Of a stretch of 47,729 nt of DNA, positions 23,016 through 47,433 are shown in pieces. This stretch comes from Polyangium aurulentum. Lineage in GTDB: Bacteria; Myxococcota_A; Polyangia; Polyangiales; Polyangiaceae. The DNA lies in assembly GCA_945875545.1 (NCBI GenBank), contig CAMCKZ010000015.1, forward strand, positions 1-47,729, written 5' to 3'. The notes beneath the pieces were generated by a model that made no database searches, was not told the origin of the DNA, and saw only the letters and a program-made list of their open reading frames with translations. How positions within the stretch are numbered: the stretch's first letter is position 1; each line of letters starts with the position of its first letter. Position numbers and translations under genes: made by a program.

Positions 23016-23331
23016 CCGAGCGTTTCGCGCGCTTGCTTTGCGGCGCAAGAACGGCATGGCGCGGCGTCTTGCTCGTCAGCGCGGGCTCTCGGCCTCGCCC
23101 GTGACCACAAAAGACGTCCGTTTGCCGCCGCCGGCATGAAGCCGTAAATCCACAGCAATATCAGTCGGTTACAGACAATCGGCGAGGATGTGTGAAAGGC
23201 ACTTGCGGTCCGCCTTCGCCTAGGCGACGTTCCATCGCCCAACGATCAGCTCGACTTGTGTGCTGCTCGGCCGGGAGGGGTGTCGACAGATTTTCGGTCG
23301 CGCCTGCAGAACAACATCAGGAGGTTTGGCC
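23016..23331. other. Intergenic region upstream of tssB
   Basis: 316 bp without a supportable gene. It holds one arm of an inverted match (CGTAAATCCACA, 23143-23154), a perfect 12-bp palindrome TCGCCTAGGCGA at 23216-23227 that could be an operator, and the strong AGGAGG ribosome site (23319-23324) of tssB. No sigma-54 site with correct spacing was found here. Confidence 0.5.
23216..23227. promoter_or_regulatory. 12-bp perfect palindrome, possible operator
   Basis: TCGCCTAGGCGA is fully self-complementary and lies about 105 bp upstream of the tssB start, in the promoter region of the main T6SS operon. A binding protein is not known; the call is by position and symmetry only. Confidence 0.3.
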
Positions 23332-23859
23332 GTGGCCATCAACGACGAGATCCCGAAGTCGCGTCTCACTCTCACTTACCGCACAAATGTTAGCGGTCAG
23401 CCCGAAGACGTGACGCTCCCCCTACGCCTGCTCATCCTTGGAGACCTTTCGCTGGGTTCCTCCAAAGACCGCGCGGCCGAGCTCGACCAGCGAGGCATTC
23501 GAAACCTCGACGGCCGTAACCTCGATCACGTCATGTCCGATATGGGCATTGTCATCCGCACCACGGTTGCCAACAAGATCGACCCCGACAAGAGCGAAGA
23601 AGTCGCGGTCGAACTGCCGATCCGCAACATGAAGTCGTTCACGCCCGCCGAAATCGCCAAGGCGATGCCAAAGGTAAAGGCACTCCTTCTCCTCAAGCAA
23701 ACGCTGCTGGAGATGCAGGGTAACATCGACAACCGTAAGGAGTTCCGCAACCTCCTTCGCTCGGTTGCTTCAGACGACAAGGCGCTCTCGGCCCTTTCGG
23801 ATGAACTCAAGGGCTTTGAAACGTTGAAGCTCCCCAAGAAGCCCGAAGCGGCCTCCTGA
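23332..23859 (+). CDS. tssB: T6SS contractile sheath small subunit TssB (VipA)
   Basis: 175 residues. The GTG at 23332 is chosen because AGGAGG lies 7 bp upstream; the frame runs back to 23260 without a ribosome site. Family features: SRLTLTYRTNV near the start, the hallmark LPLRLLILGDLSLGS, then NMKSFTPAEIAKAMPKVKALL and the C-terminal helix with NRKEFRNLLRSV. TssB interleaves with TssC to build the sheath whose contraction fires the tube. Followed by tssC after 28 bp. Confidence 0.95.
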   Translation: MAINDEIPKSRLTLTYRTNVSGQPEDVTLPLRLLILGDLSLGSSKDRAAELDQRGIRNLDGRNLDHVMSDMGIVIRTTVANKIDPDKSEEVAVELPIRNMKSFTPAEIAKAMPKVKALLLLKQTLLEMQGNIDNRKEFRNLLRSVASDDKALSALSDELKGFETLKLPKKPEAAS

Positions 23860-23887: not shown

Positions 23888-25366
23888 ATGTCGACCGCCA
23901 CGGAAGTGAACCTCCAGTCCCTGCTCTCGAGCGTTAAGCTCGGCGCCGCGACAACGGCCCTCGCGCCAGTTGTTTCGGGCAATTTTGACTTCATCAACGA
24001 AGCCCACTCGATCGAAGACCGCTTCGCATCGGGCCTCGCCGCGCTCGTGCTCAACTCCGACCTTACGGAGACCAAGCTCGACAAGGCAGCCATCCAAAGC
24101 CTCGTTGCCCGCATCGACGAAATGGTCTCTGACCAGATCAACGAAGTGTTGCATAATACAACCTTCAAGCAGGTCGAAGCTTCTTGGTCCGGCATTGCCG
24201 ACCTCGTTCGCAACACGAACTTCAAAGCGAACATTCAGCTCAGTCTCCTCGACGTCTCCAAAGACGAAGCGCTCGAAGACCTCGAACTGAACTTCGCTGA
24301 CATCGCCGGTTCGGCCTTCTTCAAGAAGGTCTACATCGGCGAGTACGACCAGTTCGGCGGGCACCCGTTCGGCGGCATGGTCGGCCTGTTCGACTTCGCG
24401 AACACCCCCAACGACCTGCTCTTGCTCCAGGGCTTCGGCAAGGTTGCCACCGCGTCGCACGCGCCGTTTGTTGCCTCCGCTTCGCCAGCGTTTTTCGGGT
24501 GCGAAAGCTACGCCGAAGTCGCTCAGCTGCGCGACGTCACGGGCCTTCTCAACGGCCCGCGCTTTGCCCGCTGGAACCAACTTCGCGAGAGCGAAGAAGC
24601 GGCGTACATCGGCCTCACGTTGCCGCGCGCCCTCGCGCGTTCACCGTACAACGCCGAAAGCAACCCTGCCTACGGCATCAACTTCGTTGAGACTGTTCGC
24701 GGCGACAACGACGACGACTACCTGTGGGCCAGCGCGTCGCTGCTCTTCGCGCGCAACATGGTGAAGTCCTTCGAAACCAGCGGTTGGTGCCAGCACATTC
24801 GCGGCGTCAAAGCCGGCGGTCGCGTGGCGGGTCTTCCCGTTCACACGTACAACCTGCGCGGCGAAGACCTCACGCGCAACCCCACGGAAATCACCATTCC
24901 AGACTTCCGCGAACTTGAGTTCGCGAACGGCGGATTCATTCCACTGATCCAGAAGAAAGGCTCGCCAGAAGCGGTCTTCTTCTCGGCCCAGTCGATCAAG
25001 AAGTCCTTCAAGTTTAGCGATGCAAAAGACAGCGAGAACTCCCAGCTGGTCACGAACCTTTCGTACACGCTGTCGATCACCCGCATCGCTCACTACTTGA
25101 AGTGCATCATGCGCGACAACATCGGCTCCACCGCCGACGCCGCGTACATCAAGGGCCAAATCGAAGGCTGGATGAACCGTTACGTCACGACCCTCGTGAA
25201 CCCGGACGACCTCACCCTTCGTTATTACCCCTTCAAGGCCTTCAGCCTCACCGTGGATCCAATCCCCGGCAAGGCCGGCTGGTACCACGCGGCACTCTCC
25301 GTGCTCCCTCATATTCAGTTTGAGGGCATGGATGTCGATCTACGGGTTGACGCGCGCCTCGGGTGA
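23888..25366 (+). CDS. tssC: T6SS contractile sheath large subunit TssC (VipB)
   Basis: 492 residues, ATG 23888 with a GAGGA site. Conserved features: EASWSGIADLVRNTN (~100), EYDQFGGHPFGGMVGLFDF (~155), ATASHAPFVASASPAFFG, the NPTEITIPDFRELEFANGGFIPL block and the C-terminal YVTTLVNPDD. Length is as expected for the family. With TssB it forms the sheath. A terminator-like hairpin follows at 25382. Confidence 0.97.
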   Translation: MSTATEVNLQSLLSSVKLGAATTALAPVVSGNFDFINEAHSIEDRFASGLAALVLNSDLTETKLDKAAIQSLVARIDEMVSDQINEVLHNTTFKQVEASWSGIADLVRNTNFKANIQLSLLDVSKDEALEDLELNFADIAGSAFFKKVYIGEYDQFGGHPFGGMVGLFDFANTPNDLLLLQGFGKVATASHAPFVASASPAFFGCESYAEVAQLRDVTGLLNGPRFARWNQLRESEEAAYIGLTLPRALARSPYNAESNPAYGINFVETVRGDNDDDYLWASASLLFARNMVKSFETSGWCQHIRGVKAGGRVAGLPVHTYNLRGEDLTRNPTEITIPDFRELEFANGGFIPLIQKKGSPEAVFFSAQSIKKSFKFSDAKDSENSQLVTNLSYTLSITRIAHYLKCIMRDNIGSTADAAYIKGQIEGWMNRYVTTLVNPDDLTLRYYPFKAFSLTVDPIPGKAGWYHAALSVLPHIQFEGMDVDLRVDARLG

Positions 25367-25381
25367 CTTATTAGTGTGAGT

Positions 25382-25411
25382 GGGCGCCCCCGAACAGGGG
25401 GTGCCCTTTTT
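25382..25411 (+). terminator. Terminator-like hairpin between tssC and hcp-like 2
   Basis: GGGCGCCCCC (25382-25391), loop GAACA, GGGGGTGCCC (25397-25406) and a T5 run. The stem pairs completely, with one G-U. It sits 15 bp after tssC. Either a partial terminator or a 3'/5' end processing signal that would let hcp accumulate at a level different from tssBC. Confidence 0.8.
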
Positions 25412-25448
25412 CTTTCCTCGCAACACAATTTCTCGGAGACAACACAAA

Positions 25449-26244: not shown

Positions 26245-27480
26245 GTGAAGCGAGTTCCACGGCAGACGGCACGGGTTAACTGGCGCCTTGGGCAGCCATT
26301 GCTCCCAGACCACTTTCTTACGCAGGAGTCCGTACTTCGCCGTGAGATCCACGAGCGATTCGGCGGAAATTCCGTTCCAAACTGGGGGCTGGGGTCGCTG
26401 CGCCTCGACGGCTTTCAGCTGGTGCGCGGAATCGTGTCGATACAGGAACTTGTGCTCACCACCGAAGGCGGGGCTCTGATCGACGTGCCCGGCAACTGTT
26501 CGGCGCTGTCGTTCAACCTGGCCTCCGTTGGCGGAGCCCGGGTGTCGGTTTACTTGCAGCTTTTTGGTGCACCGATTGTCGTTGAGGGTGAAGGCCAAGA
26601 CCCCGTCGAGCGAGCGATTGTGCGCGCAGAGCTGGGGAGCGAGCCTTTTTCCGAGGGCGTCGTCGAGTCTTTTCACTTCGCGAACTTTGATCTCTCGCCC
26701 GAAGGTGCCTGGACGTTCGCCGCGGATTATTTGCCCCCGGCGCTGCACGTCACGGGAATTCCCCACTTCGACGACGTACTATCGCGCCTTGAGACCTTCT
26801 CGCGGTCGCTTTTGCGGGTCATCGAAGACGGCCTTCACGAAGAGTACCTCGCCGCCGAAGCGCAGTCTTCTGCGAGCGACGCGTACCGCGAATCTCTGCA
26901 TTTTGCCTCGTTTTTGGTCAACATGCGCGGCGACTATTTCCCGCATCCCTTCGAGCTGCACCGCGAGCTTCAGCGTCTTTGCACGCAGATGTCGATCTTT
27001 CGCGCGGTCGCCGTTCCTGAATTGCGGCCGTACCTCCACGACGACTCCGCGGCGTCGATTCTCCCGCTCGTCGAGCGCCTCGAAGACCTCTTGCAGATGC
27101 CGCGCACGCCCACGGCCTACGCGCCGTTTCGTCCGACCGGCGGCCTTCTCGTGTGCGAAATGCCCAAAGAAGTGCGCCGGGCCCGCCAAGTTTACCTGCT
27201 CATTCAGAAGCCCCACGTCTCGACGAAACTCGAGCTTCAGCGCACGAAGCTCGGGGCCAAGTCGCGCATTCAGCTTATTCACGAAAAGGCGCTGCGCGGC
27301 ATTGCCTTCGAGCCCCTTACCCGGCCGCCGTTCCATCACACGTTCACCTCCACTGTCGATTTTTTCACGGTCGGTTCCGGCGAAGAATGGGACCACGCCA
27401 TCCGTGACGCAGCCGTTGCCCTGTTCGACGAGCCAACCCTCGACGGCTGCCGGCTCTTCATTCACTGGCGCACAGACTGA
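26245..27480 (+). CDS. tssK: T6SS baseplate protein TssK
   Basis: 411 residues from GTG 26245 with GAGGTGAT just upstream. Family opening VNWRLGQPLLPDHFLTQESVLRREI (the conserved W..G..L.P.HF segment), then YLPPALHVTGIPHF and LRPYLHDDSAAS. TssK is the trimeric receptor-like adaptor that joins the baseplate to the TssJLM membrane complex; length fits (~440). Separated from tssM by 225 bp without a gene. Confidence 0.93.
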   Translation: MKRVPRQTARVNWRLGQPLLPDHFLTQESVLRREIHERFGGNSVPNWGLGSLRLDGFQLVRGIVSIQELVLTTEGGALIDVPGNCSALSFNLASVGGARVSVYLQLFGAPIVVEGEGQDPVERAIVRAELGSEPFSEGVVESFHFANFDLSPEGAWTFAADYLPPALHVTGIPHFDDVLSRLETFSRSLLRVIEDGLHEEYLAAEAQSSASDAYRESLHFASFLVNMRGDYFPHPFELHRELQRLCTQMSIFRAVAVPELRPYLHDDSAASILPLVERLEDLLQMPRTPTAYAPFRPTGGLLVCEMPKEVRRARQVYLLIQKPHVSTKLELQRTKLGAKSRIQLIHEKALRGIAFEPLTRPPFHHTFTSTVDFFTVGSGEEWDHAIRDAAVALFDEPTLDGCRLFIHWRTD

Positions 27481-27705: not shown

Positions 27706-30700
27706 ATGCCCGCACAAAAACTCCCCGACGCAAAGGCCCTCGCGACCGCCGCAACGGCTGCGATTCCGCCCTCGGTTCTCTTGGCCGGGGTCGTATTGGT
27801 GCCTCTCGCCATCGCGGGATTCGCCCTGTGGAAGAAGCGCCGGGACGCAAAAGCAGCCCAAACCGGTGTCGTGGTGGCCCCTGCTTCCGAGGATTTGAAG
27901 CCGCGGCAGCTCGCCCAGGTGTGGAATCGCTTTTTGAAGAAGCAGCCGCCGAACGTGCGTCGGTCGATTCTGCATTTCGAGCCCGTCGTGGTCATCGGTG
28001 CGCCGGGTTCTGGAAAAAGCCGCATCATCGACACGGGCTCCGACTGGCGGCGCGCGGAGCGTCAGTTTCTCGAGTCGGACACGACGGACGCCGAGTTGCA
28101 AATTTACCTCGGGTCGAACGAGCTAACGCTCGAACTTTCGGGCAAGGCATCTCTCGGCACTTCCCGCGATTGCCGCGATGCGCTCACGAGGCTTCTCGGG
28201 CCCATCGCGCGCCGGCGCTCGCCGCTGGCGGTGGTCGCCGTTGACGGCAGCAAGCTCCTGCGGCAGCTACCCGATGCCATTGAAACCACTGCGGAAACCC
28301 TGCGAGGCAAGCTCACCTTGCTGTCGACGCTGGCGCGAAAACCGGTGCTCGCCCGGGTCGTTGTCACGCACGTCGACGAAATCGAGGGCTTCGATGCCTT
28401 CGTGAAGTTTTGTGTTTCCCAGGGTCTCCCCACGGCATTGCCCCTTCGCACGCCGAAAAAAGGTGAGAGCACGGGCCGCGAATTGCTCGACGCGCTGGCC
28501 ACCTACGAAAATCATTTGCCGCGCGCGCTGACGACCATGGCGTCCAGCGACTACCGCAAGCTCATCGTTTTTTTGCGCGAGATGCCCACGTGGTTGCCCG
28601 CCCTCCAACAGTTCTGCGACGTGATGCTGGCAGCCGATGGCCTCACCCTGGGCATTACGCCCGATGGCCTGTATTTTGCCTCGGAAGATCGCGACGCATC
28701 GAATCCGCTTCGTCGTCGTACGCCCCTCGGCGCGGGGCCCGATCCGCATGCGCGGCACCGCTTTCTAGCATTGGCGGCAGCGGGCACCGGCGTCTTCTAT
28801 CTTTCGACGGGCTGGGCGATGCAGCGGCAGTCGTGGAGCAACGCCGATCACGCCCTCGCGAGCTACCACTCGAGCTCCGGGCAAGAGCCAAACCTGCGTG
28901 AAGAAGTCGCTCAATTCACGAGCCGCGACAAATCCCGATGGCACTTTTTTCATCCCCGTTTTTTTGAGCCTGCGCGCTTGAAAATGCGTGCGCGGTTCTC
29001 GCAGCAAGTGCGCGACGAGTACGTGGGCCCAAGGCTTCAGCGCGCTGAAAGCGGGAAGGATCCCTTTCGCGAAGCCCTCATGCTCCTTGCACTTATCCAC
29101 GCCGATAAGAACGACGTGCTCCACGTCACGAGCCCCGAAAAGCTCGCTCTGTGGTCAAAAGTTCTCGGTTTCGATCCGACGATCGTTCAAGATTACATCG
29201 AGAACATCGACCACCGTTTTGTCGCGCAGATCGATTTTCCTATCGCCAAAGCGGGCGAATCTCGCGTGTCGGAAATGGATCGTTGGGGCGCACTGGCCCG
29301 CGCGGCCATGCGTGCGCAACAGGCCGGAGACGTGACCGTCGACGAACTCGACGAGCTCCACAAAATCGGTCGGTCGCTGGGGCTGACGCTCAAAGACGAC
29401 GGTGAAAACGAGAACGCCTCGGAAATTCTCGACTGGCTCGACGGTCGCCGGCGCGATGAAGGCACGACGGTCGGCTTCGACATCGTTAAGAAAAACTACA
29501 TGCAACGCTTCGCGAGCTTTGCGGACGTCGTGCGCGATCGCGAAGGTCTCAAGACCGTCGTCGATGCGATTCAACGGGCGAACATCGCGGTGAGCCAGCC
29601 TCCCCTGCTGCTGTCAGACCTGTCGACGCGCATGCGTGGCGAGTGTGCGGCACCGGCGCCCGATGCCCTGAAAGGCGGCAGCGTCCTTCGCTTCGACTTC
29701 GGCGGAACTGAACTCAAGTTTGATGCAAACCTCTGGGAATCCACTGTCCGTTCTTCGCGCGTTCGGGAGCTCGTACGCTCATTCCACGAGGCCCACGAGT
29801 CGGGCGATGCGGAGTCGTCGATCTTTTTTTCACCGGAGGTCGAACGCGGTTTGGCACCGGTTCAATGGAACCGTTTCGGCGATGCCAACGCGATTTTCAC
29901 GGGCTCCGGCGTACTCGAAGGCCGTGCCACGCGGCCGGCGTTTAGCGAGTACGTGAAGAGGCCGATCGTCGATTTTGCCAAGAGCGTGGGCTGCGTTGCC
30001 CTCACACCGTTCGAGAAGCAGCAGCTCGTTCGTTACGTGGCCGAGCGAACCGACGAATACGCCGAGCGTATGCGCAAGCAACTCGGGGTTTTTTGGAACG
30101 AATTCGGCATTCGCGCCAACTCCGGCGAGGCCCTCCGCGTGGCCTTGTCTCAGATGACAAAGCCATCTTCGCCCTTCGCCGAATTTCTCGACGACGTGCG
30201 CACGAACGCATCGGTGGCCCAAGAGGCAACCGAATCAGCACCCGGAAAAGACGCGACCGGCCCGCAGCAGAACGAGGCCGAGGCCGCGGCGATTGCCTCC
30301 ATGCTGCAACCCATTCACGAGCGGCTTCAAGAGTTCGACGTCGTGCAGACGATGTTTGCGGGCACCGAAGGCGCCACCGAGATCGAGAAATACAAGGCGA
30401 TCCTCGGTCAAATGTTGGCGGACCTTAGCGCGCTCGATACGAGCGATTCTCCTGGTGTCGCTAGGCAACTCTCAAGCCGCGTGGCGCCCGCCGGAAGGCT
30501 CTCGCTGTCCGTCTTGCAGTCGCAACAGGGCTCCTACTTGCGCCTCGTCGACGAGTGGCTCACGAACCTTCACGTGCCTCGCTCACTCTCGATGCCATTC
30601 CTCCTTCCGGTCATCGAAGTTTACAAAGTTGGCACCTCCGATCTTCAGCGCGGCTTCGACGGTAATCGCTGCGAATTTGCTCGCGAACCAGGCATCGAGG

Positions 30701-31539
30701 CTCTCGCTCGACGGTTTCCATTTTCAGACCCCGCGCAGGTCGCAGCCAAGGCGAAAGAGCAGGGCCTCGACGTGCCTGCAGTCGATGACGCCACGCCGCA
30801 AGATCTCGCCTCGCTCTTTCACCCGGCCAATGGCCGCATGGCCGATTTCTTTCGCGGCAACGTCGATCCATTCGCCCTTACAAAGAGTGCAAAATACATC
30901 GATGCCGACGAGTGCTATGTGTCGGACGCGATGCCTCAGTCGTTCCTGAAGCGCCGCTGCGACGTGAAAGTTCCCAGGGAACTCGTAGCCATGCGCGACG
31001 ACGTCGCGTTTCTCGCGAGCATGCTCTGGGACAGCGCCGGCAACCCGGTCGCAATGCCCGTGAGCGTGGAGCCAATGCCCGCGGCGAAGACAAGCGAGGT
31101 CAACGAAGTCGCGACGCTCGTGTATGCCAACATCGCCGACGCGAGCCTTTATTACTTCAACCAGCAGCCCACGCGAACCACCGTCGGCTTCGATTGGACG
31201 AAGCGCAGCGTGTCGCAAGTGGGCATCCAGCTCACGGATCTCATCTCCCGCGTGAACCTTTACCCCGAGCCCGTCGTCGCCCAGGGTTACTGGTCGGTGC
31301 TTCGACTCCTGCAAGCCGCCCAAGACCCACGCGACAAAAAGGCACCGCCAAAAGATCAACTATTTCAACGCTATACGTGGGACGTGCGCCACTCCGCCGA
31401 CGAAGACGTGACCTCAAAAGTATCGTTCAAGGTCTACGGAGATCCCTGGAAACTTCGCACCGTTGGGCAGTCCGTGCTCGATCGCGTGCGGCACCAAGCT
31501 GCGGTGTGCCGTGACGTGCAACTCGCCGCGAATCCTTGA
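27706..31539 (+). CDS. tssM: T6SS inner-membrane protein TssM (IcmF family)
   Basis: 1277 residues, ATG 27706. A membrane helix at residues ~22-42, then a cytoplasmic NTPase-like part with P-loop GAPGSGKS (98-105) and a putative Walker B around VVAVDGSKLL, a second hydrophobic segment near residue 350 (RFLALAAAGTGVFYLSTGW), and a large periplasmic domain ending in VSFKVYGDPWKLRTVGQ. Classical TssM has a two-helix hairpin before the P-loop; here only one helix is visible, so the topology may differ. With TssJ and TssL it makes the trans-envelope channel. Confidence 0.9.
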   Translation: MPAQKLPDAKALATAATAAIPPSVLLAGVVLVPLAIAGFALWKKRRDAKAAQTGVVVAPASEDLKPRQLAQVWNRFLKKQPPNVRRSILHFEPVVVIGAPGSGKSRIIDTGSDWRRAERQFLESDTTDAELQIYLGSNELTLELSGKASLGTSRDCRDALTRLLGPIARRRSPLAVVAVDGSKLLRQLPDAIETTAETLRGKLTLLSTLARKPVLARVVVTHVDEIEGFDAFVKFCVSQGLPTALPLRTPKKGESTGRELLDALATYENHLPRALTTMASSDYRKLIVFLREMPTWLPALQQFCDVMLAADGLTLGITPDGLYFASEDRDASNPLRRRTPLGAGPDPHARHRFLALAAAGTGVFYLSTGWAMQRQSWSNADHALASYHSSSGQEPNLREEVAQFTSRDKSRWHFFHPRFFEPARLKMRARFSQQVRDEYVGPRLQRAESGKDPFREALMLLALIHADKNDVLHVTSPEKLALWSKVLGFDPTIVQDYIENIDHRFVAQIDFPIAKAGESRVSEMDRWGALARAAMRAQQAGDVTVDELDELHKIGRSLGLTLKDDGENENASEILDWLDGRRRDEGTTVGFDIVKKNYMQRFASFADVVRDREGLKTVVDAIQRANIAVSQPPLLLSDLSTRMRGECAAPAPDALKGGSVLRFDFGGTELKFDANLWESTVRSSRVRELVRSFHEAHESGDAESSIFFSPEVERGLAPVQWNRFGDANAIFTGSGVLEGRATRPAFSEYVKRPIVDFAKSVGCVALTPFEKQQLVRYVAERTDEYAERMRKQLGVFWNEFGIRANSGEALRVALSQMTKPSSPFAEFLDDVRTNASVAQEATESAPGKDATGPQQNEAEAAAIASMLQPIHERLQEFDVVQTMFAGTEGATEIEKYKAILGQMLADLSALDTSDSPGVARQLSSRVAPAGRLSLSVLQSQQGSYLRLVDEWLTNLHVPRSLSMPFLLPVIEVYKVGTSDLQRGFDGNRCEFAREPGIEALARRFPFSDPAQVAAKAKEQGLDVPAVDDATPQDLASLFHPANGRMADFFRGNVDPFALTKSAKYIDADECYVSDAMPQSFLKRRCDVKVPRELVAMRDDVAFLASMLWDSAGNPVAMPVSVEPMPAAKTSEVNEVATLVYANIADASLYYFNQQPTRTTVGFDWTKRSVSQVGIQLTDLISRVNLYPEPVVAQGYWSVLRLLQAAQDPRDKKAPPKDQLFQRYTWDVRHSADEDVTSKVSFKVYGDPWKLRTVGQSVLDRVRHQAAVCRDVQLAANP

Positions 31540-31546
31540 GGGCTCC

Positions 31547-31972
31547 ATGAAACACCTGTCTCAAATTGTTTGCGTGTTGTGCCTGTGGTTCGGTGCGATG
31601 ACGACCGGCTGCGCGACGACCACGCGCATTTCTGTGGAGTCGAAGAAGGACACCAACGGGGGCGAGCCGCTGTACATGGTCGTGCGCACGACGGACGGAA
31701 AGTCGTTTGTCAGCGAGCGTTACCAAGACGTCGCGGCCAAACTTTTCTCGAAAACAGACGACCCACAAACCATTCGCCAAGAGCCTATTTTTCCAGGGAA
31801 ACCCTTCACTCTTACCTTGGAAGAGGGCGACAAAAAAGACCTCGTGGTCTACTTCTTTTTCACCAAGCCGGGCACCAACTGGCGCGTGCCGCTGCGCAAG
31901 CCTCTGCCCGCTGAAGTGATCGTGGAGCTCGGCCCCAACGACATCCAAAAGGTTCAGGTTCGCAAGCGGTGA
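31547..31972 (+). CDS. tssJ: T6SS outer-membrane lipoprotein TssJ-like
   Basis: 141 residues from ATG 31547; the open frame upstream is an antisense artefact of tssM. Lipoprotein signal with Cys22 (MKHLSQIVCVLCLWFGAMTTGC). The mature part is a small beta sandwich: LYMVVRTTDGKSF, ERYQDVAAKLF and PGKPFTLTLEE match the TssJ pattern (neutral/positive loops and a PG...F block). It binds the periplasmic tip of TssM at the outer membrane. It starts 7 bp after tssM; its stop overlaps the GTG of the next gene (GTGA). Confidence 0.85.
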   Translation: MKHLSQIVCVLCLWFGAMTTGCATTTRISVESKKDTNGGEPLYMVVRTTDGKSFVSERYQDVAAKLFSKTDDPQTIRQEPIFPGKPFTLTLEEGDKKDLVVYFFFTKPGTNWRVPLRKPLPAEVIVELGPNDIQKVQVRKR

Positions 31973-33699
31973 CACCTCCCTCTGCATCGGCCCCGCCCCC
32001 GCAGCACCTTGCCATCGGCCCTTTGGTCGAGAGGCTTCGTGTGGCGCGTGGCGAGGCTGCGATCGTCGCGCCGTGGATCGCGACCTGCGCAGAGAGTCCC
32101 GACGCGATGGAACATGCGCTCCTGCGGCATCTCGGAGGTCGTCGCGGTCAGGCCCTGGAGAGCACCCCCGGGCGACTCGAAGCGTACCAAGATGTGGTCG
32201 TGGGCCAGCTCGCAAAACGCGGCTTTGCCCTGGTAGAACGCTCGCCAACCGCGAGCAAGGCCATGGGCTACACAGACCTCCACGCGCAGGCTTCGCGCCT
32301 CGCCGCAACGTGGGCTGACCGGGGTGTGGCCGCCGCATCAACGATCGCCATCGTGATGACCCCGGGCATCGATAGCACCGTGGCGCTCCTGGCAGCCCTG
32401 CGCCTCGGGGCGATCGTGAGCTTCATTCCCCCTCGGGGCCGCAGCTTTGTTGTTCATCGCCTCATCGTGCTGACCCCGGATTTTTTGGTGGCGTCGCCGG
32501 AACTGAACGCGCTTCTCGGCGTATTTTCTGAGCTCAATCTCCCGCTGACTCCGACGCGCAGTGCCATCGACGGTCCCCCGCGGGGTCACTCGTACGAGGG
32601 GAGCGAGAGCGTGTTTCGCCTGTTTTCTCCCTACGCGCGTGAGTCGTTTGATCTCTTCGACCTGACCGCCTCCGACGTGCTGTCGGCACTTTTGCGCGGC
32701 GCTTTTTTTGGTGTGGCCGCCGATACAAGCGACGTCGTCGCGTGGCCGGAGCTCGACGATCTCACCCACGAACCGCTCTTCACACTGGCCACAATGTTGT
32801 GCGGTGCAACACGTGTATTCTGCAAGACCGCAGACTTGCTGGTGCACCCCGAGTGGCTAGCGGACTTGAAGGTGACTCTGGTCGGCATTGGCCCTGAGCT
32901 TCGCGAATACTTTCTTCGCGTGGGGCCTGAGGCCGCCCCAACTATTCGAGGTTGGCTCCGCGACAGCACGGAGCCTATGGCGGTTGAACGCACGCACGCC
33001 CTGGAAAAACGCGTCACATCTGCGCGTTGGCGGCGCAGCGATCTCTTTCACGTGGCTGCCGCGGGCGGCTTGTTGTCTTTCGGAACTACGGGCCAAACGG
33101 CGTCCGAAAACTTGGCAATGCCGGGACCAGGCATGCGGTGGATTCTCCTCGACCTCGTGGGCACCGGAAAGCCCGCGGTGGGCACTGCGGGCCTTTTTTC
33201 GCGGCTCACAAACGATGGTCCCGACCGGGCGGCTTCCGGCTTTTCCTACGTCAAGCAAGGCGACGGGTGGGTGCTCGGCGGGGCCGCGGCTCCTTGGCGT
33301 TATGGCCGCACGTACCCGCGCTTCGAGGTCTGCAAGGCGGTGCGAAGTTTGCCTTTCGTCGAAGAGGTCGACGTCGTTTTGAGGGGCACGGGCGGCAACG
33401 ACGGCCTCGCCACAGTGGTCGTTTTCGTCGATCCCTCCCTGGGTTCTGTGAGTCAATACCGAGGAAAATGGCTCAGACTCATTCGCGAAACCATCGCCTA
33501 CGAGTTGGGTGAAATGTACCTCCCCGACGACATCGCGCTACTGCCGCTTCGGCCTCGCTACACGAACAAAGGGCAGTTCGATTCGGCGTGGCTTTCCAGT
33601 GAATGGTCGAGCGGCGCGCTGGACCAAAAAGCGGCCGATCCAATATTTGTGCTGTTTGCACGCATCGCCCGTATGTTTGCGCCCCCGAGAGGAGACTAG
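31969..33699 (+). CDS. Degenerate acyl-CoA synthetase / AMP-binding (ANL) fold protein in the T6SS operon
   Basis: 576 residues from GTG 31969, overlapping the tssJ stop by 4 bp. ANL fold signs: YTDLHAQASRLAATWADRGV (101-120) and LAALRLGAIVSFIPP (141-155) match the A1-A2 region of adenylate-forming enzymes; LLSFGTTGQ with PGPGMRWILLD (368-396) fits the A5-A6 region; WVLGGAAAPWRYG and YPRFEVCKAVRSLPFVEEVDVV (434-470) the C-domain; LLPLRPRYTNKGQFD (524-538) the A10 lysine region. The ATP P-loop (A3, S/T-S-G-T-T-G-x-P-K) is missing: the aligned stretch near 212-235 has no Gly-rich loop. The A5 Glu is Gly, and the hinge Asp/Arg of A8 is lost. It may therefore be a pseudoenzyme with a structural or ligand-sensing role in secretion. 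I know of no T6SS core part of this family. Confidence 0.8.
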   Translation: MTPPSASAPPPQHLAIGPLVERLRVARGEAAIVAPWIATCAESPDAMEHALLRHLGGRRGQALESTPGRLEAYQDVVVGQLAKRGFALVERSPTASKAMGYTDLHAQASRLAATWADRGVAAASTIAIVMTPGIDSTVALLAALRLGAIVSFIPPRGRSFVVHRLIVLTPDFLVASPELNALLGVFSELNLPLTPTRSAIDGPPRGHSYEGSESVFRLFSPYARESFDLFDLTASDVLSALLRGAFFGVAADTSDVVAWPELDDLTHEPLFTLATMLCGATRVFCKTADLLVHPEWLADLKVTLVGIGPELREYFLRVGPEAAPTIRGWLRDSTEPMAVERTHALEKRVTSARWRRSDLFHVAAAGGLLSFGTTGQTASENLAMPGPGMRWILLDLVGTGKPAVGTAGLFSRLTNDGPDRAASGFSYVKQGDGWVLGGAAAPWRYGRTYPRFEVCKAVRSLPFVEEVDVVLRGTGGNDGLATVVVFVDPSLGSVSQYRGKWLRLIRETIAYELGEMYLPDDIALLPLRPRYTNKGQFDSAWLSSEWSSGALDQKAADPIFVLFARIARMFAPPRGD

Positions 33700-33704
33700 G
33701 CAAC

Positions 33705-34736
33705 ATGGCGGCCAGCGATCTACTTGCATACTACAATGAAATGGCCGACCTGCTTTCGGCCGAGGGTCTTGATACGAGCGATCCTCGCCTCATCGCCGCG
33801 GTGAAGTCCGTCGAAAAGATGGACTGGGCGGACCTCTTGCAGCGCCTGGAAGACCTCCATGCGGAGCGGGTCTACGACGTGCGCGTCTTTGCGTTTTCCA
33901 TGTATTTGGCCTGGCGAGATGGGGGTCTCGCGGCGGTGCCGGGTATTCAGGCAGCGAGCCTAAAAGCGGTTGGGCACAACCTCGAAAAATTTGGGCCGGC
34001 CCGCAAACGCGAGGCCCACATGGATGCGCGCCTCGGATGGGCTTTCGCGACCATGAACGACGACGTTGTCTACCACGAAAAGCGAAAAACGCCCGAGTGG
34101 ACGACCTGGAGCCGCGGGCTTGTGGAGGCCACGATCAGCGAGGTGACGAGCACGCGGTCCGCATTGTACGCCGAGCTGGGCAAGCGAAACTTCACCCGTT
34201 GCTCCGAGGGTTTGGCCCGCTTTTCTCAGACCTTTGAGCAGCACGCGAGCGCCTTTCGCTTGGTCGCCAACCAGGCAAAAGAGAAGGCCGCGGAGGCCGA
34301 TGCGAAGAAGGCCGCCGAGGCCACATCTGCCCGATCTTTCAGTGATAAAACCAAGCTCGTCCCCAGCGGCACCACCAGAGAAGAGACGATGTCGATCGAA
34401 CCGCGATCCAGGTCAGAAGTATCCGCAGGCACGCAGCATCTGGACTTGAAAGTGTCGCCGGCTTTCGTGGAGCTGTGCCACAAGCTGCAGGCCTTTGAGT
34501 CGCTCATAGAAAAGCGCAAATTTCTGAAGGCCGCCCTCGTCGCCGACGACCTGACCTCGGTGGTTTCAAACTTCGACCCACGCACGTACTTCCCTGATTT
34601 GTTTGCAGATTTTGGGAAACTGCTGGCCGAAAATGTGGAGGTCTTGGCCGAGCACTGGACGCAACGCGACACGCTGTCGTGGAAGGCTCTTGAGCAATAT
34701 TACCGCGTCGACCTCCAGCGTTTCGTAGACGGCTGA
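33705..34736 (+). CDS. tssA: T6SS TssA-like protein (ImpA_N type)
   Basis: 343 residues, ATG 33705. The N-terminal ImpA_N-like region includes RVYDVRVFAFSMYLAWRDGGLAAVPG (conserved R.v..f...L.w..GL..v.G) and is followed by a Lys/Glu/Ala-rich helical linker (~200-245) and a C-terminal helical domain (~275-343). TssA proteins cap the growing sheath and interact with the baseplate. Sequence match is moderate; the position between tssJ and tssG supports it. Confidence 0.75.
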   Translation: MAASDLLAYYNEMADLLSAEGLDTSDPRLIAAVKSVEKMDWADLLQRLEDLHAERVYDVRVFAFSMYLAWRDGGLAAVPGIQAASLKAVGHNLEKFGPARKREAHMDARLGWAFATMNDDVVYHEKRKTPEWTTWSRGLVEATISEVTSTRSALYAELGKRNFTRCSEGLARFSQTFEQHASAFRLVANQAKEKAAEADAKKAAEATSARSFSDKTKLVPSGTTREETMSIEPRSRSEVSAGTQHLDLKVSPAFVELCHKLQAFESLIEKRKFLKAALVADDLTSVVSNFDPRTYFPDLFADFGKLLAENVEVLAEHWTQRDTLSWKALEQYYRVDLQRFVDG

Positions 34737-34740
34737 CGCG

Positions 34741-35649
34741 ATGAACGACCGCAGCGAGAGCACGGATAGCGCGATTGCCAGGGGCATTTTGACGGGCGAA
34801 GTGAAGGCCCTGATTCAGGCGCGCGCGTATAGCTTTGATCCTGCGCGGCTCATCGATTTGTTGGCTTATTACGGGGTTCCCCGCGAAGACATCACGTTCG
34901 AGAGCAACCCGGATCGCGCCTCCGCTTCCACGATAGACAGCATTCGTTTCCAAGACGACGGCCGCGTTTTGGTGCGCGTGAACATGGGCCTCTTGGGCGA
35001 CACGGGCACACTTCCAAGCTACTTTCAACTCGTCGTCGAGCGAAGCGGAACCATCGAGAGTTTTCGAGATTTCGTTCGCTTCTTTGACGACCGACTCATC
35101 TCGAGCTTGATTCGGGCCACCTATCCTGAGCGCGATCCCACGCTCTTTGGGCACTGGCCGAGCGCCGTGGTGAACTTTCGCCGCCTTTCCGTCGTGGGTT
35201 CCGGCGCGCTTCTGCAATCGCTTCTTGCGAAGACGTTTCCCGAGCTCCGCGTTCACGTGCAACGCACGTCGATCTTTCGCTCGGATGCGGGCGCTTCCCT
35301 CGTCATGGGCGAAAATCTCCTCGACGGCGGGGGTCTGTTGGGCGAAGGGCGCATGGCCGATCCCAATGGTTTTGCGGTAACGCTTGTCGCCTTCGAGCCC
35401 ACCGCGAGCGGGGGTCGTCGGTGGCCTGGGCTCATTGCCCGGCGATTTGTGGAGCGCGTGGAGCCTGTGCTTGCGGCCCAGCGCCTCGCCTTCGATATGG
35501 AGCTTGTGGTTGTGGACCACGAAGAACGAGCCGGCCTTCAGAAAGCCGGATTCCTAGGCTATGAACGCATGGGCGGTGCCAGTGAGTCGGTTCACCGTGT
35601 TCGCCTTTACCGTGGGGTCGTGGGTCACGACGCCATTCAATGTACGTGA
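34741..35649 (+). CDS. tssG: T6SS baseplate protein TssG
   Basis: 302 residues, ATG 34741, 4 bp after tssA. The diagnostic GLLGDTGTLPSYFQLVVERSG block (family GLxGpnGpLP) and the following FRDFVRFFDDRLISSLIRA (family FlDlFhhR..sLfyRa) are present. TssG forms the wedge with TssE, TssF and TssK. Its usual partner tssF lies in the other arm (45781-47433), so the wedge genes are split between operons. Confidence 0.9.
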   Translation: MNDRSESTDSAIARGILTGEVKALIQARAYSFDPARLIDLLAYYGVPREDITFESNPDRASASTIDSIRFQDDGRVLVRVNMGLLGDTGTLPSYFQLVVERSGTIESFRDFVRFFDDRLISSLIRATYPERDPTLFGHWPSAVVNFRRLSVVGSGALLQSLLAKTFPELRVHVQRTSIFRSDAGASLVMGENLLDGGGLLGEGRMADPNGFAVTLVAFEPTASGGRRWPGLIARRFVERVEPVLAAQRLAFDMELVVVDHEERAGLQKAGFLGYERMGGASESVHRVRLYRGVVGHDAIQCT

Positions 35650-35656
35650 GGACTGC

Positions 35657-36016
35657 ATGTTTCTTCAGCGACACTTCGTAAAGGAAGAAGTCTCCGAGAT
35701 TGACGACATCGAGCAGAACCTCGCGTTCGCCCTGAAGTCCAAGCGCGGGGCAAGCCACGACTTCAACCAGATGGGGCTCCCGGACCTCTTTTTTCGCACG
35801 GCGGCCGAGGCCGTTTCCACGCTGAAAAGCGCCGTTCCCGCGCTGATTGAACGCCACGAGCCGCGGCTTGAATTCATCTCAGTGACCGACGACTACGACG
35901 ACAACGGGCGCCCGTATATCACGGTGAAATGCAGGCAACGCAGCACGGGTTACCGCGTCGATTTGGTCATCGATGGTAGCACGAGCATCGTCCAGTTCAA
36001 ACTGCGCGCGACATAA
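35657..36016 (+). CDS. tssE: T6SS baseplate wedge protein TssE (gp25-like)
   Basis: 119 residues from ATG 35657; the frame extends upstream to 35561 into tssG sequence. Pattern IDDIEQNLAFALKSKRG, DFNQMGLPDLF and FISVTDDYDDNGRPYITVKC fits the GPW/gp25 family (~130-170 residues; this one is short at the N-terminus). gp25-like proteins start sheath polymerisation at the baseplate. Its position between tssG and the vgrG-like gene supports the call. Confidence 0.85.
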   Translation: MFLQRHFVKEEVSEIDDIEQNLAFALKSKRGASHDFNQMGLPDLFFRTAAEAVSTLKSAVPALIERHEPRLEFISVTDDYDDNGRPYITVKCRQRSTGYRVDLVIDGSTSIVQFKLRAT

Positions 36017-36019
36017 TCC

Positions 36020-39000
36020 GTGGCCTACATCCCCGACCCCATTGGTTTCGACGAGATCGTCACGTGCTCGCTGTCGATCAAGGTCGGCACGGGCGAGGCC
36101 GTCGTTGTGCCCGCGGGCAACATCAAGCGCTTCAAAGTGGTGCTGAAAGACCACGGATTTGAAGCCAATTTTGACTTCTGGATCGTAAGCCAAGCCCTCT
36201 CGAGCGAAGACACGCTGCATCCCGAAATGAAGAAAGATGACCCCATCGAGGTCACCTTCACAATGGAGCCGCTGTATTCGCAGGCCGCCGCTGCACCGGT
36301 GATGACGTGCAAGGGTCTCGTCACCGTGCGTAGCGTGCTCGAACGCGCCTTCACCGACATCGACGGAGCACCGGTTTTGCACCGGCGTTACCTCGTGCAG
36401 GTCGTCGATGCCGGGGAAAAACTCTGGGGAGAACACCGGCCAACAAAGCTGTACGTCGACAAAAAACTCCAAGACGTCTTCGACGACAACAAGCCCGCGG
36501 GCATCGCGGTCACCTACGACTGGCCGCCGGTTACCGTCGTCATGCCGATTTTTGCGCTTGGTCTTGGGGCCAACGGAACAGCGTCTTTTCGCGATTTTCT
36601 TTGGTGGCAACTCGACACAAAAAACGGTGCCCTCGCCTACACGCTGGCAACCGGTGCTTACAAAATCGTGGCCACCAAAACCGTGGCGACGACGGCGATC
36701 GAGGTTGTGTTCGACGAGGTGGGCCTGGTCGAAACGCTCTTTACGTCGCCCGCGCGCGCAACCCCCACGGTGCTCAACGCCTCGACGCTGGCGGCCACCA
36801 AGAAGTCGACGATAACCAACGAAAAAAAGACAGTCGGGATCGACCAGGCCTTCTTGATCCGGTCTTCCGTCGCAGACGATCAAACGAAGCGCACGACCCT
36901 CGAGACGGCTCGCGCAACGATGCCGAAGGCCGAGATATCGATCCAGTTTCGAAAATACCCGACGATCGTGCTGCACCCAACCACGCTCGTAAAGTTTGGC
37001 GACGACTGGTCCGCCGATGCCTTTCAGAAGGCCGGCGAGTACCGCATTAGCGAGAGCTGTTACGAGGGAATTGCCAAGAAAACAGAAGCGACCGATAACA
37101 CCGACGAAGACACGAATGGGTACTCGCTGAACTTTCGAGTTCGCGCGGAGCTTAAGACAGATACAGTCATACGAAGGCCAGCCTACGTATGCCCAACGTA
37201 TCCCTTTGAGGTCGAAGCAAAAGTCGTCAGCACCCTCGGTGAAGACGACGAAGGCACGTATCAATCTGCGGCCGATGCCACGACGTCGATTGATTTTTAC
37301 ACCGTGTCGGTGAGCGTCTTCACGGACCTGAAGATCATCGTGGCCTACGAGCCCTTGTACATGCCGGGGCACTTCTACTTTCCGCTCTACAAAGATGAAC
37401 GTGTACTCCTCACGCTTTCGTTGAACGAAGCTCGCATCACCCGGTTTCTCGACTGGCGCCCGACCGCGCGCCTCGCTGCCGCGACCCTCGGCGACAACAT
37501 CGTTTGGGGGAAAAAAGAGGGCAACCAAACGACCCTCGGGCACACCTACGTGGCGGACAAACCGGAGCTCCAGCTCAAACGCACGAATGCCAAAGATCAT
37601 CAACGAATTCATGTACTTGAGGGCACGCTTTTCATCGAGGTGATGGAAGACAAAGAGGGCAAAGAAGAAAAGAAGGCCGCCAAGAAAGAAGAGAAAAAGG
37701 ACGACGCCGCCGCCAAGAAAGATACGGAAAAAAAGGCGGCAGATCCGGCTGCCGCGAAGGCCGACGCGGCACCTGCAGCGGCGGGTGGTGCAGCGGCGGC
37801 AGGTGGTGCAGCGGCGGCAGGTGGTGCAGCAGCGGCGGCAGGTGGTGCAGCAGCGGCGGCAGGTGGTGCGGCAGCGGCGGCAGGTGGTGCGGCAGCGGCG
37901 GCCGCTGGAATGGCCGCCAGCGCCGCGTCAAAGGCGGCCGCGGCTGCGGACATGGCCAAGTCCGCCACAGCGAAGCTCGACGCCGCCAAGGCCGCAGCAG
38001 GGGCCGCTGCGGCCAAGGTTACGGCGGCCCAAGCGGCCGTGGCCGGCGCTCAGGGCGCGATGCAGGCCCAGGCCGACGCCGCTAAGGCCAAGGTTGCCGA
38101 CGTCCAGGCGAAGATTGCGGGCGCTCAGGCCGAACTGCTGGCCAAAGCCGATGCCGCCAAGGCCCAGGTTGCCGACATCCAGGCGAAGGTGGCCGGCGCC
38201 CAGGCCGAGCTGCAGGCCAAGGCCGACGCCGCGATGGCCAAAGTTGCCGAGGTGCAGGCCAAAGCAGCCGCGGTCCAATCGCAGATCGCGGCGGTAAAAT
38301 CCGGGGGGCTGTCGCAAATCGCGGGGGCACAATCGGGGCTGCTGTCGCCTATCGCGGGGGCACAGTCGGGGCTGCTGTCGCAGCTGGCGGGTGCAAGTTT
38401 GGAGAGCCAGGCCGCGGGTTCGGTGGCCGCGGCCCGATCAAAATTGGCGGAGGCCCAAAGCCGCGCGAGCCTGATCAAACAGGGCGGAACCGATGCTTTG
38501 TCGCAGGCCAAAACGGCCGTCGACAGCGCGAAGGGAAAGGCCGCGGGGCTCGTGAGCGGAGCGGCTTCGGCGCAAGCAAAATCGCCGTCGGCCGCGGCCT
38601 CGTCCCAGGGCGTGGCGGCCGCCGGGGGCACAGTGAGCGAGGCCGAAGCTCTCGTTCGCGGTGCCGAAAAAGACGCGCAGCTGGCGGAGCTTTTTGCCGC
38701 CGCCGCCGCGACCCATCAGTCGTCGACGCAGCTTAACTGGACGATGAAAGTTGGAGATGCCGCGGCAAAAGCCAAGGAAAATCTAGCGACCGAACAAATG
38801 TCCGCCGTCGTCGCCAAGGCCCCACCCGCGTCCACCGGTTCCGGCGTGGCACCCGTTCCAGATGCGCACGAGACCGAACTTCGCTCCCGCGCAGCCGCCG
38901 TATCCACCGATGCCGCGGGCGTTCAAACCCGTGTCAAACAAACGAACACCGCGGGCACGTCGAGCGGAGATCGGCCCGGTCCCGAGCCTACACCCAAGAC

Positions 39001-39158: not shown

Positions 39159-39310
39159 GCGCATACGCCCAAGACTGCATGGCTGTAGAACACATGCTTG
39201 CAATCCGCGTGCGTGTAATATGCAACGTATTACCTCGCGCATACGCCAAGGACTGCATGGCTGTAGAATACATGCGTGCAGTATGCAACGTATTACGTCG
39301 CGCATACACC
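39159..39310. repeat. Direct repeats with palindromic TGYA-N3-TRCA boxes
   Basis: Unit 1 (39159-39236) and unit 2 (39237-39299) share GCGCATACGCC, a CTGCATGGCTGTAGAA core and GCAACGTATTAC; a third start is seen at 39300-39310. Unit 1 has about 15 extra bases. The units carry palindromes at 39214-39224 (TGTAATATGCA), 39262-39272 (TGTAGAATACA) and 39277-39287 (TGCAGTATGCA), plus a near copy at 39184. Together they fill the gap before the gene at 39357 and may be a tandem protein-binding site. Confidence 0.85.
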
Positions 39311-39356
39311 GTCGCACGCGTTCCTTCTGCGGTGCCCCAACGTCGTCGGGCCACCT

Positions 39357-44600: not shown

Positions 44601-45046
44601 TGAGGAAATCCGTAGCGAAGAAGGACGGCGACGACGTCTTCGAAGTCGCCAATGGCACCGAGGAGCTGGCCTGCGAGGGCGATATCGACCGGGCTCGTAG
44701 GGTGAGAAGGGAGGCGTGCGCGCTCCGAGAAATAGTCGCAGTTCGGCGCGTATTGAAAGAGGTCGAGGGGGCGCCCCTCGTCGTCAAGTTTCGGAGCTCC
44801 GGCGATCGCGTCGATCATGTATTCTACACGCGCTGCCATGGCCTCGATCTGGACGACTTCGGCGGGCAGGGCCAAGAACGCGCGCTGGCGAATGGCATGC
44901 AACATGATGCGCGCGGTGGCACCTGGATCGCTTGCTGGCAGCACCGCGGCGAACACTTCGGAGCCCGGATGCTTGTCGAGCTCCGTGGCCTTAACCCAGC
45001 GACTTTTCAGGCGCCTGGGGTCGAGGTCTTCGTCGATGAGCTTCAT
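44597..45046 (-). CDS. Small protein of unknown function between tssL and the TonB receptor
   Basis: 149 residues from ATG 45046, whose ATGA overlaps the tssL stop; the open frame above is the tssL tail. It opens MKLIDEDLDPRRLKSRWVKATELDK and is mainly helical, with LPASDPGATARIMLHAIRQRAFLALPAEVVQIE and a DFEDVVAVLLRYGFPQ end. No signal peptide. I do not recognise a family. The overlaps on both sides imply cotranslation with TssL and the TonB receptor, so a role with the secretion system is likely. Confidence 0.72.
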   Translation of the reverse strand: MKLIDEDLDPRRLKSRWVKATELDKHPGSEVFAAVLPASDPGATARIMLHAIRQRAFLALPAEVVQIEAMAARVEYMIDAIAGAPKLDDEGRPLDLFQYAPNCDYFSERARLPSHPTSPVDIALAGQLLGAIGDFEDVVAVLLRYGFPQ

Positions 45047-45774
45047 GAGGGCGATGACCACCAGAGCGCGAGAAGTGTTCCAAGAACGGCGCACGCAGCC
45101 GCCGCGTAGTAACGCCACGGCGATCCAGAAAGCTCGATCGTGGGGCGCTCACCGACGGACTCTTGCTGCACCGCGGGGGTCGGAATGCGGAGGCGAAGCC
45201 GGCCCCGCACGTCGTCGAGGCGCATGGGGCTACCGGCGTACATGCCCTTGAAGCCGTCGTTGAGGCAGAAATAGAACGACTCAAAAACGACCGGGTGCGT
45301 ATCGGCTTTGACCAGGAGTTGGTCGAGATACGTGAAAAAAAGCTCACCGCCGTCGGTCACGTCGTAGAGTTCGCTCTGCAGCGGCTCCCACCGGGTGACC
45401 TGCGCGCGCGCCACGGTGCGCACGAGCTCGTCGGAGTACACGACGATCGGAAAGAGTGTAAAGTACACCTCTCGTTCCGTCAGTACGTCGGCGAGGGTTG
45501 AGCGCAGCCCCAACAGCTGTTTTCGTATTTCAGAGCGCAGCCCCACGAGATCGGCCCCTTGCGGGTAGGCCTCTCCGATGGCTGGATCGTCGGCCAACTT
45601 TTCAACGGTCGGGAACCGCGGCTCGATGGCCTCGGGTACGGCCGTGGTGTCGAAGGGATCGCGGCTGCGGCGCGCGTGGGCGAGCTCGGCGGCATACGCG
45701 CGCAGGCACTCGGATTCGATGGCCGCGAAAGCGCGTTCGATGGGAAACCACAGGCGATTGGCTGGCGTCGGCAT
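45043..45774 (-). CDS. tssL: T6SS inner-membrane protein TssL (DotU family)
   Basis: 243 residues. DotU features: FPIVVYSDELVRT, WEPLQSELYDVTDGGELFFTYLDQLL, FYFCLNDGFKGMYAG, then RGRLRLRIP and a single C-terminal membrane helix (YYAAAACAVLGTLLALWW) that anchors it with the bulk in the cytoplasm. No OmpA-like peptidoglycan domain. It sits 6 bp after tssF. It forms the cytoplasmic hook of the TssJLM complex. The tssM and tssJ partners are in the other arm. Confidence 0.93.
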   Translation of the reverse strand: MPTPANRLWFPIERAFAAIESECLRAYAAELAHARRSRDPFDTTAVPEAIEPRFPTVEKLADDPAIGEAYPQGADLVGLRSEIRKQLLGLRSTLADVLTEREVYFTLFPIVVYSDELVRTVARAQVTRWEPLQSELYDVTDGGELFFTYLDQLLVKADTHPVVFESFYFCLNDGFKGMYAGSPMRLDDVRGRLRLRIPTPAVQQESVGERPTIELSGSPWRYYAAAACAVLGTLLALWWSSPS

Positions 45775-45780: not shown

Positions 45781-47433
45781 CTACGGGGCGTAGGAGCGAC
45801 GAATTTCGAGGTTGCGAAGGCACACATTTACCTCGACAACTTCTTGGGGAGTCCAGGCGCGAAGGACGCGTGTGAGCGCGCGGCCAAACGTATCTAGAAA
45901 AGGAATCGAGGTGCCATCAAGGCCATCGAAATTGACGGTGACAACTTGTTTAAGACCGCTCGCATGGCGGGCAAAGGGCTTCACGGCGGTGACCACAGAA
46001 GAAAGACCCTCGACGAAGCGCGCGAACGCGGGTTGGGCATCAGCAGACAAGAAGCGGAGCAAGAAACGCAAATCTTCTGTTCGGATTTCGGGATCTTGGC
46101 GCATCGCGATGAGGCGCAAAACAGCCTCGCGATCTCTCTCGAATGGAGACAGAGTGGCCTTGGTTATCGTTGAAAGCAAACTCCAGTCGAGACCCTCAAT
46201 GAAGCGCGATGCTGGGGAAACTTCTAGGTCCAGACTATTGATGTCGTTTAGTTCCGGTTGAAACCAAAATGCGTCTACGGCCAGTCTCTCGGGGGCTTCG
46301 AAGGCCCCTGGAATCGCGACCTCCACGAAGGCGCGGCGGTCGCCGAGGCCGCCCGAGAACATGCTCTCCCAGCCGCCCGCTGCCGCGCGGATGGAGCCGT
46401 GTTCGAGGGGAGCGAAACCATCTTTCGTGATGCGGTTTACGGACAACACGGCCTGCGGGCGCAGGCCCGGGAGCGACACCGGCGCCATGACCGGGTGACG
46501 AAGCTGCGTTCCGTTTTCGTCGATCATGCCCGCGAAGTCGTGGATGCGGTTCACCGTGGCGACGACACCCATGTGAATCATTTCCAAGGAAAGTCTCAGG
46601 CTGGAAGGCCACTTGGGACTCACGTCGATGCAGATGGTGAAGCGCGTCCAGCGGGGAGGCGTGCGCGGAACCGTGACCTCGATGAACTGGGCCTGCTGCG
46701 GAAAACGAAAATAGAGGCGCTCGCGCTCGAGGGAGTTCGCGACAGCCTCGCCGCGGGCGTCGTCGAGGGTGGGCTCGCCGAAGTGATGGCCGCATGCGAC
46801 GCCGACGCTGGCCTCTGTAACCCGCTCGTCGAAGACCACCGAGACGCCGACGAGGTTGGTTTCGATGGCGTGCAGAATCGTGGTGGACGCGGCAAAATCG
46901 CCCAAATGATTGATATGAATTGGAATGCGGCCAAGACTCTCCTGGCGAGGAAATCTGCTCTCAAAACGAAGGGCAATGCGCGAACCGGCGGGCCCTCGGC
47001 GGATGGTCTCGACACCGACAAGCGACGCGGGTAAAATGCGCATGCCGCGCAGGCTCGTGAATCTGTAAAAAGAGTCTTCACCGATGGGGCCTTGGCCCGG
47101 GCGACGCAGGACGAAGTCGGTCTCGCTCGGCAGCTCGACGACCTCAACGTGCCGCGTGTTCGATGCGCCCTTCAAGAGGCATGTGGACGGAATGGGGCGA
47201 AGCAGTTCGTCGAAGGTGGCGCGAAAAAGACGAAGCAGCGCGTCGTCCAAGCGTCCGCCGGCGGCGATGCGTGAACGGGCGGAAAAAAACGCGATGGCCT
47301 CCAAGAGGCGCGCCACATCGGGATCGTCGCGGTGCAGCGGAACGAGGGGATGCGCGCCCGCATACGCGATGCGAAAACGCTCGAGCGCCTGCATTTCGTC
47401 GAGGTAAGTGGCTTCGAGTTCTTTGTCGTCCAT
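45781..47433 (-). CDS. tssF: T6SS baseplate protein TssF
   Basis: 550 residues from ATG 47433. Family features: an N-terminal helical region with YLDEMQALERFRIAYAGAHP, DDPDVARLLEAIAFFSARSR (family DPdVERLLEafAFL.AR) and LLRPIPS, then VEVVELPSETDFVLRR; the C-terminal third has LRFLLRFLSADAQP. Length is close to the usual ~580. TssF partners TssG in the wedge. It follows the partial spike gene by 5 bp. Confidence 0.92.
   Translation of the reverse strand: MDDKELEATYLDEMQALERFRIAYAGAHPLVPLHRDDPDVARLLEAIAFFSARSRIAAGGRLDDALLRLFRATFDELLRPIPSTCLLKGASNTRHVEVVELPSETDFVLRRPGQGPIGEDSFYRFTSLRGMRILPASLVGVETIRRGPAGSRIALRFESRFPRQESLGRIPIHINHLGDFAASTTILHAIETNLVGVSVVFDERVTEASVGVACGHHFGEPTLDDARGEAVANSLERERLYFRFPQQAQFIEVTVPRTPPRWTRFTICIDVSPKWPSSLRLSLEMIHMGVVATVNRIHDFAGMIDENGTQLRHPVMAPVSLPGLRPQAVLSVNRITKDGFAPLEHGSIRAAAGGWESMFSGGLGDRRAFVEVAIPGAFEAPERLAVDAFWFQPELNDINSLDLEVSPASRFIEGLDWSLLSTITKATLSPFERDREAVLRLIAMRQDPEIRTEDLRFLLRFLSADAQPAFARFVEGLSSVVTAVKPFARHASGLKQVVTVNFDGLDGTSIPFLDTFGRALTRVLRAWTPQEVVEVNVCLRNLEIRRSYAP

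Follow-up and report, generated by a model that had tools for sequence, protein, structure and literature searches.

A predicted non-catalytic acyl-CoA-synthetase-like protein in the IglE/IglI-type type VI secretion gene set of Polyangium aurulentum and other Myxococcota

The Francisella-type type VI secretion system (T6SS; T6SSii) is said in a 2023 review to occur only in Francisella (PMC10433429). In F. novicida, iglI is essential for sheath assembly (PMC5481754), and Francisella IglF, a putative secreted protein, is bound by IglG (PMC5014421). Canonical TssA binds TssJM ahead of TssL recruitment, and the TssA equivalent in Francisella is reported as unidentified in a review that gives no TssA for that genus (PMC5924787). 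Here we consider a stretch of 47,729 nt from Polyangium aurulentum (assembly GCA_945875545.1, contig CAMCKZ010000015.1, positions 1 to 47,729, forward strand), referred to below as the window. Between an IglE-type tssJ and an IglI-family gene it carries a gene for a protein related to the adenylate-forming, acyl-CoA-synthetase-like (ANL) enzymes, which we call pseudo-ANL. The three genes are:

31547..31972, forward strand: tssJ, IglE-type lipoprotein (IglE_N PF22361, 3e-19, 69.6 bits, cut-off 26; NF041245, 7e-11, below cut-off)
31969..33699, forward strand: pseudo-ANL, 576 aa from a GTG start, with the fold of an acyl-CoA synthetase and degenerate catalytic sites
33705..34736, forward strand: IglI-family protein with a putative TssA-like N-terminal domain (NF041244, 2e-61, 208 bits against a cut-off of 100; best match of the model, the ImpA_N domain of TssA, 6hs5)

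The 4-bp overlap between the tssJ stop and the pseudo-ANL start (letters GTGA) is as described in an initial annotation of this DNA, which read it as translational coupling, and the IglI-family gene starts 5 bp past the pseudo-ANL stop. The window shares with T6SSii the IglE-type TssJ and IglI, and the order tssB-tssC-x-tssK resembles the iglA-B-C-D order of Francisella. In contrast to T6SSii, the clusters described here carry the pseudo-ANL gene, and their hosts are Myxococcota and one metagenome-assembled genome (MAG) of Desulfobacterota. They indicate that these genes, at least, are spread more widely, and they are like T6SSii in gene content.

Pseudo-ANL resembles the ANL enzymes (acetyl-CoA synthetase, 4-chlorobenzoyl-CoA ligase (4CBL), 4-coumarate:CoA ligase (4CL) and the adenylation domains of non-ribosomal peptide synthetases (NRPS)) in its two-domain fold, its A1-A2 sequence and its colinear profile. 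The AMP-binding family PF00501 matches the window protein at 36.0 bits (cut-off 29.9; 4.7e-9) over residues 96-156 only. It also matches 26/26 relatives (E<=1), 11 of which match the C-terminal AMP-binding_C family as well. A profile of the 26 relatives aligns colinearly with six acyl-CoA synthetases from the same genome over 501 columns (probability 99.3-99.8). AlphaFold (AF2), given the window protein and six relatives from public genomes, returned a two-domain ANL fold (pLDDT 78.6, pTM 0.83). Foldseek ranks acetyl-CoA synthetases first for this model (E 4e-24, TM about 0.66). VIA-align gave Z 29.0 over 357 residues with the TycA adenylation domain (NRPS); for 4CBL and 4CL, Z was 27.3-27.6 with 456-468 residues aligned (rmsd 4.2-4.5), enough to span both ANL domains. 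From the model and the profile, the window protein is an ANL superfamily member by descent, with a predicted large N-domain and small C-domain. The initial annotation had described both domain outlines as intact, and both Foldseek and VIA-align recover the fold.

The sites that define adenylation chemistry have been lost. In the window protein the one kept region and the four degenerate ones are:

32254..32436, forward strand: A1-A2 region of the ANL fold, kept (residues 96-156; PF00501, 4.7e-9)
32608..32664, forward strand: site where the A3 P-loop is lost (residues 214-232; consensus in the family LFSP...P..L.A)
33040..33084, forward strand: site where the A5 motif is lost (residues 358-372; consensus in the family AA.GG; pLDDT of the model low here)
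33274..33336, forward strand: degenerate A8 hinge region (residues 436-456; profile alignment, motif counts)
33523..33654, forward strand: lost A10 Lys and family-specific C-terminal motif (residues 519-562; PR...D..WC..QY.SG.L..KA..P.F)

Unlike the ANL enzymes, pseudo-ANL lacks the P-loop, the A5 Glu, the A8 hinge Asp and the A10 Lys; in addition it has a conserved C-terminal motif and is encoded in a T6SS cluster. The ATP-binding signature of A3 (PROSITE PS00455) is found in 0/26 relatives versus 5/6 acyl-CoA synthetases of the same genome, and a looser P-loop pattern in none of the 26 versus all six. The profile alignment places unrelated residues at the A5 TE/Glu and the A8 hinge Asp, with no conserved acidic equivalents, and the column of the catalytic A10 Lys holds Lys in only 7% of the family. 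These losses of A3, A5 and A8 are as first annotated. The family has conserved positions of its own, which include a YHD-like segment ahead of A1 (Y73, D75), S220-P221 at the P-loop site and AA.GG at A5. With the motifs that define ATP use and catalysis lost in 26/26 relatives, the window protein is predicted to be a non-catalytic pseudoenzyme of the ANL superfamily.

The initial annotation left three roles in view, those of sensor, scaffold and acyl-handling factor. Given the loss of catalytic motifs in every member, a scaffold or assembly role is favored over acyl handling. An acyl-handling factor, or an enzyme of altered chemistry that transfers, for example, an acyl group from preformed acyl-CoA onto a T6SS lipoprotein, would fit the ANL ancestry and the adjoining tssJ, which encodes a lipoprotein. 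However, none of the 26 members keeps the catalytic elements conserved in the superfamily, pseudo-ANL has no export signal, and TssJ is lipidated outside the cytosol through the general Lgt/Lsp/Lnt route. We regard such a function as very improbable.

A ligand-binding sensor, the main rival explanation, would have lost turnover and would still bind a small molecule (an acyl group, amino acid, acyl-CoA or nucleotide) that gates T6SS assembly. ANL enzymes reorient their domains upon ligand binding, the two-domain fold is kept in the model, and a pocket could be lined by the AA.GG that is conserved at A5. On the other hand, the nucleotide-binding motifs are lost, positions in the A3 region are no more conserved than the protein as a whole (mean 0.47 in both), and confidence in the model is lowest near A5. 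We consider a sensor rather unlikely.

The link of the gene to a T6SS operon gains greatly in strength from its distribution. A profile search of 379 Myxococcota genomes was bimodal: it returned 21 full-length members in 17/379 genomes at E 5e-85 or better and, after a gap, ordinary synthetases at E 4e-21 and weaker that match only around A1-A2. The IglI family exceeds its cut-off in 16/379 genomes, to which G002 is added, a genome with IglI split across contig ends, so that pseudo-ANL and IglI occupy the identical set of 17. TssC was found in 68/379 genomes, and 51 T6SS carriers lack both pseudo-ANL and IglI. Fisher tests of co-occurrence gave 7e-30 for all genomes and 2e-16 within T6SS carriers, values that are overstated given that related genomes are not independent, although the set still covers several families, orders and classes.

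A search for related loci in public genomes yielded six, and 26 pseudo-ANL members are known in all. T6SS genes lie on the same contig for 25/26 of them, and none of the 26 has a P-loop. Neither outcome named as refuting in the initial annotation was seen, as an ANL fold is predicted and the orthologues are not scattered members with intact motifs. IglI directly follows pseudo-ANL on the same strand in 21 of the 24 loci in which adjacency could be assessed, across several families and classes, the exceptions being G020 (2.4 kb off), a Desulfobacterota MAG (G423) and G045. The gene order tssJ - pseudo-ANL - iglI is conserved. That orthologues always neighbor tssJ would be too strong a statement: an IglE-type tssJ is directly upstream in 13 loci and, in most of the rest, has another place in the cluster. 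The strongest genetic tie of pseudo-ANL is therefore to IglI, stronger than to tssJ. Tree-distance matrices of the two proteins correlate (r 0.78, permutation p 5e-5), as joint inheritance would predict.

Some single genomes carry pseudo-ANL and IglI in two or three distinct clusters (G323, G400 and G376; L094-L100, L106). On contig C413 of G376 a C-terminal ANL piece ahead of IglI was not found in the frame tested, so that a contig join there is unproven. The Desulfobacteraceae-labeled MAG (G423; JABZFQ010000050) has the order clpB/clpV-tssM-tssJ-pseudoANL-tssB-tssC-x-tssK...tssF, with IglI on the same contig, and is the sole carrier among 247 genomes of Desulfobacterota. A cultured carrier, Paraliomyxa miuraensis SMH-27-4, was found, and no relative of pseudo-ANL was found on plasmids. 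Membership of pseudo-ANL in the IglI-type T6SS gene set, and with it the assignment to a T6SS operon in the initial annotation, is well supported. No report that names an ANL protein as a component of the T6SS was found in the open-access full texts searched, in line with the initial annotation, to which no core T6SS part of this family was known.

Effectors and their adaptors are often encoded in T6SS clusters, as pseudo-ANL is, and it might be an effector, an effector adaptor or a cargo-loading protein delivered by the system. Yet effectors normally differ between strains, whereas pseudo-ANL is found in each genome of the IglI type, distant ones included, and mostly adjoins structural genes. 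Scans of the family returned no toxic-domain match. A delivered protein of this kind seems improbable to us.

The degenerate motifs could also suggest a metabolic gene decaying in the operon by chance. This is already contradicted, and we give it almost no credence: the reading frames are open in relatives, the gene keeps the same place in distant genomes, it is absent from genomes without IglI, and it is under purifying selection. Its dN/dS is 0.18-0.29, a range that also takes in the genus of the window; in four congeneric genomes the values are 0.17-0.23 for TssC and 0.16-0.26 for IglI. Constraint on pseudo-ANL is close to that on the sheath gene, and the gene is not decaying.

Hydropathy reveals no apparent signal peptide or transmembrane segment in pseudo-ANL, which is predicted to be cytosolic. 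TssJ is periplasmic, and direct action of a cytosolic protein on it would be impossible. This leaves IglI/TssA, TssK, the baseplate and the cytosolic portion of TssM as candidate partners.

The identity of IglI bears on the missing TssA of Francisella. The initial annotation named the gene after pseudo-ANL tssA; its predicted N-terminal fold matches TssA best, and NCBIfam assigns the protein to the IglI family (208 bits). The IglI model (pLDDT 76, pTM 0.53) has as its best VIA match the ImpA_N domain of TssA, 6hs5, with Z 10.7 over 181 residues (next 8.2), a Z that helical proteins can reach. TssA came first only in VIA, as Foldseek alone found no significant match for the model. The TssA model TIGR03362 is matched weakly by 4/15 IglI relatives (best 4e-7). 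The IglI neighbor may resemble TssA/ImpA_N proteins in the predicted fold and, weakly, in the sequence of its N-terminal domain; it differs in being shorter than most TssA, and pseudo-ANL itself is no TssA. Together these matches are suggestive of a TssA-like N-terminal domain. The IglI-family neighbor is probably TssA in function, and may be the TssA of the Francisella-type T6SS.

With IglI as its strongest genetic tie, we favor, at somewhat better than even confidence, a role for pseudo-ANL as a cytosolic scaffold or assembly chaperone of the IglE/IglI-type T6SS that acts with the putatively TssA-like IglI at the start of assembly. In this scenario, the system would have co-opted an ANL enzyme fold as a dedicated, non-catalytic component. 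Pseudo-ANL would bind IglI and, by way of IglI (or else of TssK or the cytosolic portion of TssM), help to join the membrane complex and the baseplate before sheath growth. Contacts would most likely involve the C-terminal motif specific to the family and the conserved stretch ahead of A1. Canonical TssA acts at the membrane-complex step before TssL (PMC5924787), and pseudo-ANL and IglI would by analogy act at that step.

Several observations weigh against the scaffold role. Shared species history also contributes to the correlation between the trees. In G045 the pseudo-ANL gene has no recognized T6SS gene beside it and IglI is on another contig; both genes are intact (L037, L103) and neither is beside its usual T6SS neighbors. 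In the Desulfobacterota MAG, pseudo-ANL and IglI are 12 kb apart within the cluster. We know of no ANL protein reported from the IglI-type T6SS of Francisella, so pseudo-ANL would not be needed for every IglI system. IglF, the putative secreted protein of Francisella bound by IglG, would be a hypothetical counterpart. As for G045, two open reading frames (ORFs) beside its IglI were considered as a broken pseudo-ANL gene; they gave no profile match, and one is an ABC-transporter ATPase. In a further proposal, possible but doubtful, the clusters would form a T6SS subtype not described before (IglE/IglI type, Myxococcota and some Desulfobacterota), with pseudo-ANL as a core subunit that jointly with IglI stands in functionally for the multi-domain TssA ring; an enzyme fold would then serve structurally in a contractile injection machine.

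The remaining T6SS genes of the window are:

23260..23859, forward strand: tssB (TIGR03358, 2e-39, over cut-off)
23888..25366, forward strand: tssC (TIGR03355, 1e-147, over cut-off)
26245..27480, forward strand: tssK (TIGR03353, 7e-71, over cut-off)
27706..31539, forward strand: tssM (PF14331, over cut-off; TIGR03348, 2e-13, below cut-off)
34741..35649, forward strand: tssG (PF06996, 3e-6, over cut-off)
35561..36016, forward strand: tssE candidate (PF04965, 2e-5, just below cut-off; TIGR03357, 1e-5)
45043..45774, reverse strand: tssL (DotU) (PF09850, 3e-16, over cut-off)
45781..47433, reverse strand: tssF (PF05947, 1e-13, over cut-off)

On either side of tssB-tssC are two paralogous ORFs, 22407-23015 and 25380-26087 (27% identity, E 3e-25), neither of which matched a family. 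The second occupies the place that iglC (Hcp) has in iglABCD, and by this analogy the pair may encode tube (Hcp-like) proteins. A GAF-domain histidine kinase (20423-22291) is immediately upstream of the T6SS genes. The T6SS genes also adjoin a gene (39276-40730) for a divergent protein of the sigma-54 type, which has a core-binding and a DNA-binding domain and is possibly a dedicated regulator; next to it lies a gene for an FGE-sulfatase/GldK-like protein (40749-41810). Right after the tssE candidate is an ORF of 1034 aa (36020-39124) with an Ala-rich, repeated, coiled-coil-like segment; it matched no family, and a comparison with the long ORFs downstream in locus L036 shows no relationship.

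If the role of pseudo-ANL is confirmed, a constant subunit would be added to one type of T6SS, and the fold of a metabolic enzyme would have been taken into a contractile machine. Non-pathogenic myxobacteria would then be available to model the IglI-type system, which is little understood.
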